Assembly: GCA_015069095.1 (NCBI GenBank)
Contig: SVJH01000023.1
Coordinates: forward strand, 1 to 33,080
DNA length: 33,080 nucleotides
Direction of reading: 5' to 3'
From: Oscillospiraceae bacterium
Lineage (GTDB): Bacteria; Bacillota; Clostridia; UMGS1810
Below the pieces are notes generated by a model that was not told where the DNA came from, did no database searches, and worked only from the letters and a program-made list of their open reading frames with translations. Position numbers and translations under genes: made by a program. Below are positions 9,569 to 21,337 of the stretch, piece after piece. Position 1 is the stretch's first letter; the number at the start of each line of letters is the position of its first letter.

Positions 9569-12500
9569 CTATTTTACTGTTGTTTCCAATAAATCTGCAA
9601 GTGGAATGTTTAGGTTATCCCAAAGCATTACTTTTGCATTACAACCCGTAGCATTTAAAGAATCAAAGTCAACATCAACTTCGTATGATGTTTTATTTGA
9701 AGTTGCATCTACTGCTTTTGCAGCAACCATTTCGCTTTCTGATGAATAAATTGCTACAACAAGTTTTGCACTTTCTTCAACAACACAAGTTACATTCGCC
9801 TTTGCTCCAGTATCATTTGTATTTACATCTGCTGATGCTATGATGTTTCCGCTTGTAAATGCTACTGTGTTTGTGCCACCATTAAGTGCCACGTTATTTT
9901 CGCCTACATAAACTCCTTTGCCATTTACAACTGCATATCTTCCCGCATCAGGAACAAGTGTAATTGTTCCGCCAACTGTTGATGGAACTACACTTCCACC
10001 AACTGATACGTCTACAATATAGTCTGTGTGGCTTTTAAAATATGAAGCTGCAAGTGAACCTTTTTCGCCTATTACGTTGCTTTTTGTATCATACGCATCA
10101 CTTATAAATATAATCGTGCTTACTTCCGATGCGCTGTTGCTTTCGGTTCTGCTACCTGCAAACACACCAACGTTTGTTGTATCAGAAATTCCTGAAAGAC
10201 CATTCTTTGTATTTAAACTTACATTTGGTCCGATTACAATATTTGTAGTACCTGTTACGCAATCCGAACCGCCCCATGTTGCTGAAATAATTTTATAATC
10301 AAATTCGTTGTAACATCCGCCATAAACTCTTCTTGTTACTTCTCCGCCCAAAAGATTTATAACAGTATTACCTGTCATTGCATAGTTTTCACTACCGCCA
10401 AATATCGCTTCAACTATACCACCTGTCATAGTAACATTAGTATTAGATGTAATTTCAGCAGAAGTTGAACCTGCGTAAACATTCATTACTTTACCACCTG
10501 AAATAGTGATGTTTGTTTCAGGAGTAGTACCGCCTGCAAATTGACCGGCACCAACGATATATTTTGTAACAGCATTACCTGTAAAGGTAATATTTGTGCT
10601 GCCTGTAACAGCTGCGCTTCTGCCGCCACCAAAAATTCGGCATTCAACTGCATTTGCTGTATCTGTACTGTTAACATTTCCTCCAACAATAACGTTTGTA
10701 TTACCTGTTACTTTTCCGCTTGTGTTAAATCCACCGCCGAAAATTCTTGCATATTTACCACCGTAAATTCTAACATCAGTACTTGCTACGGTAGCATTAT
10801 TTTTACCGCCGTATACAACAAATCTTGATTCTATACTGTTTGCACTGTCATTATATGATGTTACAGTATCTGCAATTTCAAGTGTATGTCCGTTTGCAAA
10901 AATACTTGCTGAATTATCTACAGAACTTGTTGAACTTAACGCAACAGTTGCTGTGCCTTTTAAAACAAGGTTTTCAAACTTTGTATTACCCATTATGTCT
11001 GTTGATTCAGGAAGTGTTAATACAACGCTGCTTGTTTTACCTGTAATAGTAAAACTTCCACGTTCTTTTTCTGCATCTTCATATGTCATATCATCTAAAA
11101 GAACAATTTTTGAAACAGGTAATTTAAATGCTGCTTTAAGTGATTTTAAAGGTGCACTTTCGCTTAAACCACTGTTTGCGTCGTTACCTGCATTTGAAAC
11201 ATATGCTACAGAATTTGCAACATCAACCGGCTCAACTGTAATATCATCTACGTATAATGCAGTGTTATATGGAGCATTAGTACCAGTATCGTCATCCATC
11301 AACTGGTCAAACATAATTTCATCTTTAAGATTTCCGCTTGAATCTTTACCCATTGTAAAGATGTATTCTCCATATGTCCAGGTACCTGCAGGTAAATCTA
11401 TTGTTTTAGCCGTTCTTGTTTCTTTTGTTTCATCTGATATAATACCAAATGAAACCTTACCTTCGTTTTCGCCATAGAACCATGCGCCTAATTTGTATGT
11501 GTTACCAACTGTTGCATTTTTCAATGCATCTCTAAGTTTTAGTCTGTGCTGAAGCTGCTCAATACCATCTATTTTTAATGAATAACTTCCGCCGTGTACT
11601 TGTTTTGTCGAGTAGAATACATGTCCGCCAAAAGCGCCGCCACTTGTCCAGTCTTCATTCAATGTAAGTATATTTTCTGCGCCTTCTTCAAAATCCAAAG
11701 TTGCATAACCGTCAGTTACTGCATCTTCAAAATAAGATGTTCCTGTTTCTTCGATTTTTATGTCGTCAATATAAATATCATTAATTACTACTGATGAATC
11801 TCTCTGGTCAATAGCAAAAGCTGCTGTTAATCCGGTATTTGTTTTAATATCCAAATAAACAGATACATTGTTCCATGTGTTTGGTTTTAAAGCACTATCT
11901 TCACCTACTGGATAATATTTGTTTGAACCCCAGTAGCTGTTCATTGTTTTATCGTCTTTTGTAGTATATTTAGCACCAAATCTAATACCTTTTTCAGATT
12001 CTTCGCCTTTTGGATAAATTTTAAAAGAAATTTTTGTTTTCTTTCCAATATCGCTATCTTCAAACATATCAAGAAGTGATACACGAGTTGCGGTGGCATT
12101 TGTTCCCGGTGCATTTATCAAAAGAGATTTTCCTTCTGTACCAATGCCTTTTTCAGAATTCGAAACGACACTTACATCACCTGTAATATTACCAGTCCAG
12201 TCAACACCTTTAATTAAATCTCTTGTGTTTTCAAAGTCAATTACTTCGTTTCTGCCTGCACCCATAAACATTGAAGGTGTTTCTATAATTTTGATATCGT
12301 CAACATAGATATATTGATATCCACCTTCAAACGAAGTTCCAGCATCGTTTCTCTGATCAAAGAATAGGTTTTTTGCACCTGTTGCCGTTGAAGGAATTGT
12401 TATATTAAATTCAATGTCATTCCAAACACCTTCATTAAAATCTACACCTTTTTTTAAGTATACAGCTGATTTTTTTCCACCATCTGCTGATGCAGAAATG

Positions 12501-13441
12501 GTAGTTTTTAAACCAGTTCTGATATCTAAATCAGATGTGCCTTCTACATACATTTTATAACTAATTGTATATGTTTTGCCTGCTGTAGTAGATTCGCAAG
12601 ACAAAATGTTATAAAGTTCATTTCTGTTTTTGTATCCTGCACCTCTTAAAACTTTTCCCTGACCGGCACCAACAGGGTCATTAACAATGTATTTTCCGCC
12701 GTTAGCGTCAACATCATAAACAGTTGCAGAATTACTATATCCTCTTAACGTAGTATATGTAGCATCTTCAAAATCTAATGTTTCGCCAAGATTATAACTT
12801 GCAAATACAGATGCTTCAGATGTTGGTTTTGTATCTGTAGCATCAATCACTTTTATAAGTTTTACATCATCAATGTAAAAACGCTGTGTATCTGTAACAT
12901 TTTCGCCACCTGAAAGTTCAAATCTTACATTTAGCGAACCGCCGGATGCAATATTTGACGCGTTATAAACAAACTCATTTGATGAAACAGTCATCCACAT
13001 TTTTTCAGGCACAGATGCAATTGTTCTTGTTGCAGAGCCTAAATATGCAGTAGTACCAGTATCCTTTAAAGGTTTAACAACAATGCTTTTTGCACCAGCG
13101 CTATTTGCGTGCATTACATAAGCTGTAATTTTATATGTTGCTCCTTCTTCTAAAACTGTGTTATCTAAAAATACTTTTGCAATAACTTGCTCTACTCCTG
13201 TTGCACCTGCCTTTCTTCGTGCAACTAACACTTTTTTACTTTGTGCACCATCAATGTAGTTGGGTGCATTATTCTGTAAAAATGTGCCTGTAGAAGTTCC
13301 GCCTGCAGCATAATCACTGCTTGTTGCGCTTTCAAAGGTTTGTGTCCATACCGTTTGATAATCAGTATATGCATATGTATTAACAACACATACTGACATA
13401 AGCATTGTGAAAACTAAGATGATTGATAATAGTTTTTTCAT
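9569..13441 (-). CDS. large secreted multi-module protein: four jelly-roll-like repeats plus beta-helix
   Basis: This 1290-aa protein begins with a signal peptide (MKKLLSIILVFTMLMSV, cleavage likely after TYA near residue 25). Four tandem modules of about 170 residues follow. Each opens with an F/LDFE-type strand and closes with a strand of the type [YI]xDDIxI, ending near residues 195, 388, 563 and 745, like CBM4/9-type jelly rolls. A YVSNAGNDANSG motif near 750 introduces a right-handed beta-helix (about 780-1070) of repeated GG-rich turns such as IFGGG and ITISGG. The last 75 residues, ending VMLWDNLNIPL, resemble a C-terminal domain often found in clostridial secreted proteins. There is no LPxTG, SLH or transmembrane anchor. 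Likely role is polysaccharide binding or surface coating; no catalytic residues could be assigned. Confidence 0.85.
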   Translation of the reverse strand: MKKLLSIILVFTMLMSVCVVNTYAYTDYQTVWTQTFESATSSDYAAGGTSTGTFLQNNAPNYIDGAQSKKVLVARRKAGATGVEQVIAKVFLDNTVLEEGATYKITAYVMHANSAGAKSIVVKPLKDTGTTAYLGSATRTIASVPEKMWMTVSSNEFVYNASNIASGGSLNVRFELSGGENVTDTQRFYIDDVKLIKVIDATDTKPTSEASVFASYNLGETLDFEDATYTTLRGYSNSATVYDVDANGGKYIVNDPVGAGQGKVLRGAGYKNRNELYNILSCESTTAGKTYTISYKMYVEGTSDLDIRTGLKTTISASADGGKKSAVYLKKGVDFNEGVWNDIEFNITIPSTATGAKNLFFDQRNDAGTSFEGGYQYIYVDDIKIIETPSMFMGAGRNEVIDFENTRDLIKGVDWTGNITGDVSVVSNSEKGIGTEGKSLLINAPGTNATATRVSLLDMFEDSDIGKKTKISFKIYPKGEESEKGIRFGAKYTTKDDKTMNSYWGSNKYYPVGEDSALKPNTWNNVSVYLDIKTNTGLTAAFAIDQRDSSVVINDIYIDDIKIEETGTSYFEDAVTDGYATLDFEEGAENILTLNEDWTSGGAFGGHVFYSTKQVHGGSYSLKIDGIEQLQHRLKLRDALKNATVGNTYKLGAWFYGENEGKVSFGIISDETKETRTAKTIDLPAGTWTYGEYIFTMGKDSSGNLKDEIMFDQLMDDDTGTNAPYNTALYVDDITVEPVDVANSVAYVSNAGNDANSGLSESAPLKSLKAAFKLPVSKIVLLDDMTYEDAEKERGSFTITGKTSSVVLTLPESTDIMGNTKFENLVLKGTATVALSSTSSVDNSASIFANGHTLEIADTVTSYNDSANSIESRFVVYGGKNNATVASTDVRIYGGKYARIFGGGFNTSGKVTGNTNVIVGGNVNSTDTANAVECRIFGGGRSAAVTGSTNITFTGNAVTKYIVGAGQFAGGTTPETNITISGGKVMNVYAGSTSAEITSNTNVTMTGGIVEAIFGGSENYAMTGNTVINLLGGEVTRRVYGGCYNEFDYKIISATWGGSDCVTGTTNIVIGPNVSLNTKNGLSGISDTTNVGVFAGSRTESNSASEVSTIIFISDAYDTKSNVIGEKGSLAASYFKSHTDYIVDVSVGGSVVPSTVGGTITLVPDAGRYAVVNGKGVYVGENNVALNGGTNTVAFTSGNIIASADVNTNDTGAKANVTCVVEESAKLVVAIYSSESEMVAAKAVDATSNKTSYEVDVDFDSLNATGCNAKVMLWDNLNIPLADLLETTVK

Positions 13442-16114: not shown

Positions 16115-16963
16115 GTGTTTATACTGTTTAAGCGTTTTAAACTATCATATTTTGCTTTGCTTTTTTTAATAATTTTTACAGTAACTTTTTTAGGTGTGTT
16201 GTTTGGAACATCTTATTTTAACGTTAAGTCAACTTATTATCTTAACACACTTGGGGACAACCTTAAAAATGAAGTTAACATTTTGCTTTCCGGAATAAGT
16301 GATGACGGAAATAACATCGATTTTATAACTGTTTTAACTATTAAACCAAGAAGAAGTAAAATTGAAATTACGCAAATTCCTACTGATACATTAACACGAA
16401 TAGTTGATACAAACCAGCCGCTTAAAAATGTTTATTCAATCGGTGATACAGAAATATTTATACAAAAAGTTTCAGAAATTACAGGAATACATTTTACATA
16501 CTATGCAATTGGTAAATTTCAAGCATTCGAAAATGTAATTGACATTTTAGGGAATATAAAGTACGATGTGCCGTACGATATGAAGTACAATGACACTAAA
16601 ACTCAGACTAATATAAATGTTTCTGGAAATTTAAAAGAAATAAACGGAAAAAACACTCTCGATATTATAAGATATTCTAAGTTAAATCATTTACCTAAAG
16701 ATACCGACACCTTTGCATCGCAACTGTTAAGTGTAATTCTTAGCCAGAATCTTAACGAAAAAGATATAGAAAAAATGGATAACATTGTAAGAGAATTTTC
16801 ACAAAATTCCAATACTAATCTTAAAAGCGATGACGTTGAAACATACATTTCGATATTTAAAAGCATAATTGTAAAAGATATAAAAATTAAAAATTTTGGT
16901 GGAAAATACAAAAATATCGACGGTTATACATATTTTATACCTGACGGTAATTTGAAGGATTAA
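16115..16963 (+). CDS. LytR-CpsA-Psr (LCP) family protein, divergent
   Basis: This 282-aa protein has one N-terminal membrane helix (about residues 10-32) and an extracytoplasmic domain resembling LCP phosphotransferases, which attach anionic polymers to peptidoglycan. Supporting segments are the strand pair FITVLTIKPRRSKIEITQIPTDT, the YYAIGKFQAFENVIDILG helix and the NGKNTLDIIRYSK motif. The arginines expected after this last motif in canonical LCP proteins (RxR and DxxRxxRQ) are absent: here the sequence continues LNHLPKDTDTF. Catalysis may therefore be altered. The start is GTG at 16115, just behind AGGGCG, a close spacing. The gene ends convergently on the microprotein operon. Confidence 0.72.
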   Translation: MFILFKRFKLSYFALLFLIIFTVTFLGVLFGTSYFNVKSTYYLNTLGDNLKNEVNILLSGISDDGNNIDFITVLTIKPRRSKIEITQIPTDTLTRIVDTNQPLKNVYSIGDTEIFIQKVSEITGIHFTYYAIGKFQAFENVIDILGNIKYDVPYDMKYNDTKTQTNINVSGNLKEINGKNTLDIIRYSKLNHLPKDTDTFASQLLSVILSQNLNEKDIEKMDNIVREFSQNSNTNLKSDDVETYISIFKSIIVKDIKIKNFGGKYKNIDGYTYFIPDGNLKD

Positions 16964-16992
16964 AAAAGGCATCGGATTAAAATCCGACGCCT
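16962..16992 (-). terminator. rho-independent terminator of the microprotein operon
   Basis: Read on the minus strand, AGGCGTCGGAT pairs with ATCCGATGCCT (one G-T wobble) around a TTTA loop and leads straight into TTTTTT. It lies five bases beyond the last microprotein stop and abuts the LCP stop codon. There is no T-run on the plus strand, so it serves the minus-strand operon. Confidence 0.85.
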
Positions 16993-16997
16993 ATCTA

Positions 16998-17138
16998 TCA
17001 GCAGCAGTTATTACATGTTCCGTTTGAACATAAAAGCCATATTATAACAATGGCACCAATTATAATCCAAATACCGTTACAATCAAAAATGGAGTTGTTA
17101 GAGCATGAAACGCTGCTTTGTCTGCACATATCACACAT
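16998..17138 (-). CDS. cysteine-rich single-helix microprotein (46 aa), third of three
   Basis: ATG at 17138 behind GGAGGT encodes 46 residues ending in TGA. It carries eight cysteines (C2, C5, C12, C20, C37, C42, C45, C46) flanking one hydrophobic helix at about residues 23-36 (IWIIIGAIVIIWLL). The N-terminus has a CxxC pair (MCDMC) and the C-terminus ends in NNCC. I do not recognise a named family; the layout recalls small YjcZ-type and clostridial spore-associated proteins. It follows the second microprotein by 15 bases and precedes a strong terminator. Confidence 0.75.
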   Translation of the reverse strand: MCDMCRQSSVSCSNNSIFDCNGIWIIIGAIVIIWLLCSNGTCNNCC

Positions 17139-17153
17139 ATTTTTTACCTCCAA

Positions 17154-17294
17154 TTACTGACAGCAACCGTCATTGTTTGAGCATTCACAATCATTGTTGT
17201 TTAAGAACAATAAAAGAATAAGAATAATAAACCATAATGCTGTTGAGCCGTTGTTCTGACCGCCGCAGCAGTTGTTGTTAAATAGTCCGAACAT
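17154..17294 (-). CDS. cysteine-rich single-helix microprotein (46 aa), second of three
   Basis: ATG at 17294 behind a full TAAGGAGGTG ribosome site encodes 46 residues. The order is an asparagine-rich N-terminus with a CC pair (C9, C10) and NNG, one hydrophobic helix at about 19-31 (ALWFIILILLLFL), then NNND followed by CxC (C36, C38) and a terminal CCQ (C44, C45). The layout mirrors its two neighbours. Function unknown; a small membrane or spore-coat protein is plausible. Confidence 0.78.
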   Translation of the reverse strand: MFGLFNNNCCGGQNNGSTALWFIILILLLFLNNNDCECSNNDGCCQ

Positions 17295-17331
17295 TATATA
17301 CACCTCCTTATTTTTTTACTTTGTTTAACTT

Positions 17332-17424
17332 TTAATCACAGCAACCAAACAGAAGTAAAAACACGAGTATGAAAAATAAGATACCGTCGTTTCCGTTAAA
17401 AAGGCTGTTACAACATCTTGACAT
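17332..17424 (-). CDS. cysteine-rich single-helix microprotein (30 aa), first of three
   Basis: ATG at 17424 behind CGGAGGTG encodes only 30 residues: MSRCC at the start, NGNDG, a hydrophobic helix at about 15-26 (ILFFILVFLLLF) and a terminal GCCD. A CC pair lies on each side of the helix. Similar tiny NDG-ILFFILVFLLLF proteins occur in Clostridia as unnamed ORFs (recollection, not checked). It lies 37 bases upstream of the second microprotein and is the first gene after the promoter at 17474-17502. Confidence 0.75.
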   Translation of the reverse strand: MSRCCNSLFNGNDGILFFILVFLLLFGCCD

Positions 17425-17449
17425 ATTTAGCACCTCCGTTTTATATTAG

Positions 17450-17462
17450 CGGTTAAAAACCG
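17450..17462. repeat. short inverted repeat in the microprotein leader
   Basis: CGGTT-AAA-AACCG forms perfect five-base arms between the promoter and the ribosome site of the first microprotein. It is too short for a terminator and has no T-run; it could be a small operator or chance. Confidence 0.25.
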
Positions 17463-17473
17463 TTTTAATACAT

Positions 17474-17502
17474 ATTATGAATTCTAACTTTTTTTGTTAC
17501 AA
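17474..17502 (-). promoter_or_regulatory. candidate promoter of the microprotein operon
   Basis: On the minus strand TTGTAA (17502-17497) and CATAAT (17479-17474) are separated by 17 bases, with four and five matches to sigma-A consensus. The same bases also read AC, 16 bases, then CATA, as in mother-cell sigma-K promoters, although the downstream TA of that consensus is only half matched. Sigma class is therefore open. Confidence 0.5.
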
Positions 17503-17535
17503 ATCGCATTATTTAAAAATCAAAAGGAGAACTTT

Positions 17536-18651
17536 ATGAAAGCAATTATCCTTACAATATCTGCCGGAGGCGGACACCATACTGCAACAAAAGCAATCGA
17601 TGAGCATTTAAAAACTTTTGGAATTGAAACAATTACAATAGATGCTTACAAGTATTTTAATACATTACTAAGCAATACAGTTGAAAAAGGATATCTTATT
17701 TCAACAAAATACATTCCTAAAATATACGGAAGATTTTACAGAATGGCAGAAAAAAGAACAGAAAAAGAAACATCTGTAAGAATGGGTGCTATGGGTTCGA
17801 GCCTTGTATTTAAAAAATTTGCAAAATTTATTCAGGAACAAAATGCCGATGTTATAATAACAACACATCTTTTTGGCGGTGAACTTTTAACTGCTATGCG
17901 TGAAAAAGGTATGATAAACTCCCTTTTAATCGGTGTTGTTACAGATTTTACAGTTCATCCTTTCTGGGAAGAAACAAATCTTGATTATTACGTTACTGCA
18001 TCTGAACTTTTAGATTACCAGATGTATAAAAAAGGAATTACAAAAGATAGAATCCTTCCTTTTGGAATACCTATTCATCCTAAATTCGCAAGGAAAACGG
18101 ATAAAAGCGAAGCGAGAGAAAGACTTGGGCTACTTGAAAAAACTACCGTTATGGTAATGGCAGGCTCTATGGGATATGGTTCAGTATATAAACATATAAT
18201 GCATCTTGATTCATCCCCTCTTGATTTTCAGATAATATGTGTTTGCGGAAGTAACAAAAAACTGAAAAAACAGTTGGATGCATATTCAGCAAACAAAAAT
18301 ATGATTGTTTACGGGTTCACAACAAATGTTGATCTTTTAATGGATGCATCCGACTACATAATAACAAAACCCGGCGGTCTTAGTGTATCTGAAGCACTTG
18401 CTAAAGGTCTTCCGCTCATACTTATCGACCCTATTCCAGGTCAAGAAGACAGAAACAAGGAGTTTCTTTTAAATGTAGGTGTTGCAATTACTGCAACAAA
18501 AACTCACCCGGCTGATGAAGCAATTTATCAACTCGAAAAAAGTGATATAAGAAAAGCCTCACTTGATGATATCATTAAAAACATTGCTAAACCTGATGCC
18601 GGCAAAAAGCTTGGTGAATTTATAGTTGAAAATATCAAAAGAGATAGATAA
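17536..18651 (+). CDS. MGDG-synthase-type glycosyltransferase (UgtP-like)
   Basis: This 371-aa protein belongs to the MGDG synthase/UgtP group (GT28-like). These enzymes usually transfer a sugar from a UDP-sugar to diacylglycerol at the inner membrane face. The N-terminal acceptor domain opens with ILTISAGGGHHTATKAI. The C-terminal GT-B domain contains VMAGSMGYG, VYGFTTNVDLLMDASD, the donor motif TKPGGLSVSEALAKGLP and PGQEDRNKEFLL. A longer frame begins at a TTG at 17494, but the ATG at 17536 has AGGAG six bases upstream and gives the family's normal start. The 3' end overlaps the CCA gene by 26 bases. It probably makes glycolipid or a lipoteichoic-acid anchor; sugar and acceptor are inferred. 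Confidence 0.86.
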   Translation: MKAIILTISAGGGHHTATKAIDEHLKTFGIETITIDAYKYFNTLLSNTVEKGYLISTKYIPKIYGRFYRMAEKRTEKETSVRMGAMGSSLVFKKFAKFIQEQNADVIITTHLFGGELLTAMREKGMINSLLIGVVTDFTVHPFWEETNLDYYVTASELLDYQMYKKGITKDRILPFGIPIHPKFARKTDKSEARERLGLLEKTTVMVMAGSMGYGSVYKHIMHLDSSPLDFQIICVCGSNKKLKKQLDAYSANKNMIVYGFTTNVDLLMDASDYIITKPGGLSVSEALAKGLPLILIDPIPGQEDRNKEFLLNVGVAITATKTHPADEAIYQLEKSDIRKASLDDIIKNIAKPDAGKKLGEFIVENIKRDR

Positions 18652-20696: not shown

Positions 20697-20728
20697 AAAT
20701 CATCAAATTTACAAAAAAGGTGTGTCCT

Positions 20729-21337
20729 ATGAAAAAATTGATGATTTCTTTTTGTTTTGGCTTAATAATTACTTTTGGCATATGTACTCACTTTAGTGTG
20801 CTCGAATCGACCATATCAAAAAATGTTATAAGATTACATATTATTGCCGATGACAATTCAAAAGATGAACAGGCTTTAAAATTAAAAGTAAGAGATGCTG
20901 TTTTATTAAAAACAAAAGATATTTTTACAAACGATGTCGATATTCTTTCTGCAAAAAACAATATAAAAAATAATCTTGGTATCATTGAAAAAACAGCAAA
21001 AGAAGAAATAATTAAAAACGGATATAATCACGATGTTAATGTTACATTTGAAAAAAGTTATTTTCCGACAAAAGTGTACGGAAAAGTGACTTTACCACTT
21101 GGAACATACGATGCTGTAAAAGTAAAAATCGGAAAGGCTAAAGGTAATAACTGGTGGTGCGTTATGTTTCCGCCGTTATGTTTTACAAACGGAGCATCTG
21201 CCAAATTAGATGATGACTACTTCAAAAATAATCTTTCAGATAATGAAATAAGTTTTATCACAACTAAAAAAAGTCCGCAAATAAAGTTAGAATTCAAACT
21301 TTACGAACTTTGGCAAAAATTAAAAAAGGCGTCATAA
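20729..21337 (+). CDS. spoIIR: stage II sporulation protein R
   Basis: This 202-aa exported signalling protein is made in the forespore and triggers SpoIIGA to process pro-sigma-E in the mother cell. A hydrophobic export segment covers about residues 5-22. The conserved part includes VIRLHIIADDNSKDEQALKL, VRDAVL, the FPTKVYGKVTLPLG strand region and the NWWCVMFPPLCF motif with its cysteine pair, all typical of SpoIIR. An in-frame GTG at 20720 would add three residues, but AAGGTG sits correctly before the ATG at 20729. The TAA stop lies in the loop of the terminator hairpin. Presence of this gene marks the host as an endospore former. Confidence 0.93.
   Translation: MKKLMISFCFGLIITFGICTHFSVLESTISKNVIRLHIIADDNSKDEQALKLKVRDAVLLKTKDIFTNDVDILSAKNNIKNNLGIIEKTAKEEIIKNGYNHDVNVTFEKSYFPTKVYGKVTLPLGTYDAVKVKIGKAKGNNWWCVMFPPLCFTNGASAKLDDDYFKNNLSDNEISFITTKKSPQIKLEFKLYELWQKLKKAS

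Follow-up and report, generated by a model that had tools for sequence, protein, structure and literature searches.

A constrained three-gene operon of cysteine-rich, single-helix microproteins in Clostridia, with a sigma-K-type promoter and a probable place in the outer layers of the spore

Cysteine-rich proteins that self-assemble are known from the spore surface of C. difficile (CdeC and CdeM) and of C. sporogenes (CsxA) (PMC6101409, PMC7677010, PMC7333573). The consensus sequence for sigma-K, the late mother-cell factor, has been published (PMC3789822, PMC517825). In C. difficile, the sigma-K coat genes cotA, cotE, CD0596-cotCB and CD2399-cotD have promoters of the AC / CATA type, and the autoregulated P2 promoter of sigK has the form AC / CATATAAT (PMC3789822); in B. 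subtilis, the sigma-K regulon includes yjcZ (PMC517825). The coats of clostridial spores have few proteins in common with those of Bacillus, and proteins of fewer than 50 residues are routinely omitted from both annotation and proteomics. Here, we analyze three such small genes, A, B and C, within a window of 33,080 nucleotides (the whole stretch of DNA analyzed), which is contig C35 of a draft genome of 2.06 Mb. We describe from direct observation the genes, their operon, the coding constraint upon them, the type of their promoter and their genomic association with sporulation.

The A-B-C operon and the constraint on its frames

All three ORFs are contained in the 572 bases that separate the stop codon of an LCP-family gene (16963) from the ATG of a glycosyltransferase gene (17536). 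They are arranged head to tail, with intergenic spacings of 37 bases (A-B) and 15 bases (B-C), and a GGAGG precedes each at the normal distance, in agreement with the good ribosome sites claimed in a preliminary description of this DNA. That description had also provided the operon with a promoter and a strong terminator. The terminator stands (its hairpin folds with -18.7 kcal/mol, z -6), but the promoter site claimed is a weak sigma-70-like one (TTGTAA-17-CATAAT, 9/12), and the conserved element upstream of A is of the sigma-K type.

Table 1. Features of the locus and its surroundings (window coordinates)
Feature	Position	Strand	Remarks
Secreted-looking protein	9569-13441	-	1290 aa, repeated carbohydrate-binding-like blocks
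LCP-family gene	16115-16963	+	
Intrinsic terminator of the A-B-C operon	16967..16992	-	11-pair hairpin, then T-run
ORF C	16998..17138	-	46 aa, 8 Cys, core IWIIIGAIVIIWLL
ORF B	17154..17294	-	46 aa, 6 Cys
ORF A	17332..17424	-	30 aa, 4 Cys, MSRCCNSLFNGNDGILFFILVFLLLFGCCD; first gene of the operon
Shine-Dalgarno region of A	17428..17436	-	GGAGGTGC
Sigma-K-type promoter	17472..17497	-	AC-N16-CATAATAT (ACAAAAAAAGTTAGAATTCATAATAT)
MGDG_synth / diglucosyl-diacylglycerol-synthase-like (ugtP-like) glycosyltransferase	17536..18651	+	divergent neighbor of the operon
SpoIIR gene	20720-21337		within the same window

Relatives of the locus were reached by way of the neighboring glycosyltransferase gene. A-B-C is present, in the same order and divergent from that gene, in genomes of the same family (G001, G003, G005, G006, G007 and G008) and in one of another family (G022). 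The cluster also occurs in G013, a further genome of the family in which the glycosyltransferase gave no match at the threshold used, and on a metagenome-derived contig of a Clostridiaceae bacterium (JAAYMJ010000287.1), the one named relative to emerge from a contig scan whose tblastn filter short matches probably do not pass. Among four f1 genomes belonging to three genera, the nonsynonymous distance (dN) spans 0.04-0.18 (A), 0.09-0.34 (B) and 0.13-0.42 (C), with synonymous sites at or near saturation; A differs from its f1 relatives by a dN of 0.08-0.16, its synonymous sites being saturated. Such low dN beside saturated synonymous sites means that the frames are under coding constraint, and purifying selection on A, B and C is strong. 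The three ORFs had initially been taken for real genes unless their frames should prove unconserved or free of coding constraint; orthologous frames exist in at least eight other genomes, the dN is 0.04-0.42 with saturated synonymous sites, and conservation and dN together rule out chance ORFs.

In many lineages from several families, the arrays are divergent from the MGDG_synth/ugtP-like glycolipid synthase gene (in the window, the region 17425-18651; loci L003, L004, L005, L007, L008, L012, L015, L017, L020, L021, L062 and L077). When the neighbors of arrays in other families were examined, no spore gene in common was found.

The layout of A is CC - N-D-G-ILFFILVFLLLF - CC and that of B is a Cys cluster, STALWFIILILLLF and a second Cys cluster; there are two CC pairs in A, two in B and one in C. 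The AlphaFold2 model of B is a single helix of 18 residues (16-33), with weak overall confidence (a mean pLDDT of 57.5 that rises to about 79 in the helix), and the shared layout proposed earlier, one helix between Cys clusters, is thus upheld. In 125 relatives, an uninterrupted hydrophobic core, rich in Leu, Ile, Phe and Trp, has a median length of 13 residues (mostly 12-15). The median number of cysteines among them is 4; 93 have at least 3 and 8 have none, while 13 of the 125 combine few Cys with at least two Tyr and 19 have neither. Some relatives bear Gly/Tyr tails in place of Cys, and GYGYG tails occur in the arrays at L054, L091 and L152. One protein of 64 aa (L048:1495-1689) includes two core segments. 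Proteins of this form are likely, but not certain, to insert into a membrane, the core being short for an ordinary membrane span, and metal binding through the cysteines is possible.

Promoters of the A-B-C clusters and related arrays

The motif AC-N16/17-CATANTAT is present upstream of A in 10/10 complete clusters, 31-53 bases 5' of the start codon and with spacer sequences that are unrelated to one another; 1000 dinucleotide shuffles gave a mean of 0.03/10 and a maximum of 2. On both strands of the 33 kb window the strict pattern occurs twice, and one of these occurrences is the A promoter. By its sequence, the motif matches the sigma-K consensus. As a positive control, AC-N15-18-CATANNNT was found in 11/12 of the regions upstream of sigK in the host and related genomes, mostly as CATATAAT. 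A vegetative sigma-A promoter was rejected as the dominant signal, because conservation falls on AC and CATANTAT and not on TTGACA/TATAAT.

Across the Clostridia, AC-N16/17-CATANNNT lies upstream of 40 of 77 distinct arrays versus 3 of 154 control windows, which were the same upstream pieces reversed or complemented (p 7e-20, a value that is too small, as are those given below for genomes, since the arrays and genomes counted are partly related and their independence is overstated). A variant -10 element with AATA (AATANNAT[AG]TA or AATANTAT) precedes 21/77 arrays versus 2/154 controls. A whole-genome scan with TAAC-N17-CATANNNTA gave no excess over the reversed control, this pattern being so strict that it misses the window's own site with its 16-bp spacer.

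At the -35 position, GTAAC is found in 8/10 clusters, and the GTAACA of the window resembles a SpoIIID box, for which the C. difficile consensus is KRTAACARK (PMC5025042); SpoIIID may also act at the A promoter. A second form of promoter, in which GTAAC is followed at similar spacing by AATANNATATA, replaces the CATA form in f7, f53 and other families (L040, L045, L051, L055, L056, L060, L094, L157 and L169), and this form may mark lineages in which recognition by sigma-K or sigma-E has shifted.

Extent of the family and its association with sporulation

Among 293 genomes sampled across the Clostridia, the A profile is matched in 55, the B profile in 56 and the C profile in 26 (many of these last matches being weak); a broader A/B profile finds 78 genomes with a cut-off of E<=0.01 and 52 when this is tightened to E<=1e-5. 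When 398 genomes were sampled across the whole phylum, the only matches at E<=0.001 were the host genome and three marginal genomes outside the class, and strong matches are confined to the class Clostridia. Among relatives, an array holds between one and three genes, and those of B and C type are often found together. The A and B profiles align with one another (hhalign 96%, E 2e-9, to be read with caution as both are hydrophobic), whereas the alignment of A/B with C is weak (61%, 9 columns); A and B thus look homologous, and C is not clearly joined to them. The preliminary description had envisaged a family expanded by tandem duplication. As a recent, lineage-specific event, such an expansion does not survive the comparison: the A-B-C order is kept in other families (L020, L062), the host genome has a single copy of each gene, and the operon is an old one that belongs to a broad, unnamed Clostridia family.

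Up to E 10, neither Pfam nor NCBIfam, the YjcZ models included, matched the window proteins or any of 14 relatives, and the family had no match in the PDB; a search of the open-access literature for the core motif found nothing. A phage or mobile origin was rejected on the lack of PHROGs, viral-contig or plasmid matches (one relative in the plasmid search), and a structured RNA in place of proteins on the lack of an Rfam match.

The host encodes sigK (G000:C46:48587, 316.8 bits versus a curated cut-off of 298.65). SpoIIR is present in 52/55 genomes with A versus 157/238 of those without it (293 genomes; Fisher p 5e-6), and the corresponding figures are 48/52 and 161/241 when the broad profile is applied with E<=1e-5 (p 9e-5). 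Strong family matches were found in just 4/84 SpoIIR-negative Clostridia: G158, whose genus mates have SpoIIR; G280, whose assembly is in fragments; and two genomes of f47, G246 and G275. The spore context suggested initially has therefore gained support from the sigma-K-type promoter, the co-occurrence with SpoIIR and the near absence of members from the rest of the phylum. YabG, sought as a sigma-K control gene, was not found in the host and related genomes. Many spore formers have no detectable member, so the family is not essential to sporulation.

The f47 genomes genuinely weigh against a role under sigma-K alone. In G246 (about 1.21 Mb read, tblastn) SpoIIR was not found, and neither was a close sigE or sigK; a sigF-like factor, at 294 bits, falls short of the equivalog cut-off (321), and YabQ exceeds its own. 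SpoIIR was not found in G275 either, and the family members of both genomes are strong. Both genomes carry a B-C array with an altered -10 (L177, G246:C5:150000-169999; L178, G275:C23:133000-152999): the f47 promoters keep TGTAACAC and have AATA instead of CATA, and the G246 array has AATACTATA in place of the CATANTATA of the others. Perhaps f47 no longer has the full sporulation program of its ancestors. The G246 array (L177 11550-12030) lies 3' of a tRNA-like sequence, and copies of a GTAGGGGCAGCGTA element stand on either side of it, as an inverted repeat on the upstream side.

Proposed role and comparison with known systems

Judged from its sequence, A-B-C is probably one sigma-K-dependent operon of the late mother cell, which encodes cysteine-cross-linked, single-helix microproteins of the spore's outer layers. 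The genes would be transcribed from the sigma-K promoter late in spore formation, and each product would be a single-helix microprotein whose hydrophobic core, about 13 residues long, lies between ends rich in Asn, Gly, Asp and Cys. These proteins would be delivered to the outer membrane, coat or exosporium of the forming spore, where they would associate by means of the short hydrophobic helix and become fixed, through cysteine disulfides, in an insoluble layer; the relatives with Gly/Tyr tails would perhaps use tyrosine cross-links instead. More tentatively, the genes may represent a broad, uncatalogued and sigma-K-driven Clostridia family with a 13-residue core and interchangeable Cys- or Gly/Tyr-rich tails, whose members build a hydrophobic layer of their own, held by cross-links, in the spore envelope.

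The genes could also belong to the mother cell at an earlier stage, under sigma-E and SpoIIID, with products that work at the outer membrane of the forespore or in the attachment of cortex and coat. Sigma-E and sigma-K have similar -10 elements (PMC3789822) and the -35 GTAACA fits the SpoIIID consensus (PMC5025042); however, ATA at the sigma-E spacing occurs in only 1/10 clusters versus AC at the sigma-K spacing in 10/10, and we consider this timing unlikely. That the proteins act outside the spore, as regulatory or stress microproteins of the membrane that sense metals or redox state through their cysteines and are switched on in stationary phase, seems to us distinctly improbable: the single hydrophobic helix would suit such a function, as would the strong members in f47, where SpoIIR and a close sigE or sigK were not found, but the promoter is of the sigma-K type, strong matches are rare in SpoIIR-negative Clostridia and almost lacking in the rest of the phylum sample, and the spacing of the cysteines is not fixed as in a metal site, some relatives having Gly/Tyr tails. 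Toxin-like or antimicrobial peptides (of the type I toxin or bacteriocin-like kind) share the small size and the one hydrophobic helix; nonetheless, with a conserved three-gene order, a developmental promoter, no Rfam antitoxin RNA nearby, no PHROGs match and, for one relative, no plasmid match, this origin can be given very little credence.

If the genes act as spore-layer proteins under sigma-K, as we favor, a family that can be recognized by its core, shares a developmental promoter and recurs in arrays across a wide range of spore-forming Clostridia offers a concrete list of candidates for missing envelope components, and a short annotation rule (profile plus AC-N16/17-CATA promoter) could find more members cheaply. 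Among the described systems, the YjcZ family of Bacillus, which comprises very small membrane proteins of sporulation, resembles A, B and C in the small single-helix protein and in the sigma-K control of B. subtilis yjcZ. It presumably differs in cysteine content and core motif, and the comparison with its models gave no YjcZ match even at E 10. CdeC, CdeM and CsxA have a high Cys content in common with A, B and C (4, 6 and 8 Cys in 30, 46 and 46 aa); they are far larger proteins in which the short hydrophobic helix is missing, and kinship in sequence is not expected. The sigma-K coat genes of C. difficile have a similar promoter logic, but their products are enzymes or larger coat proteins. 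Because no family model matches the A/B/C family, CdeC, CsxA and yjcZ are best regarded as parallels in working and not as evidence of kinship.
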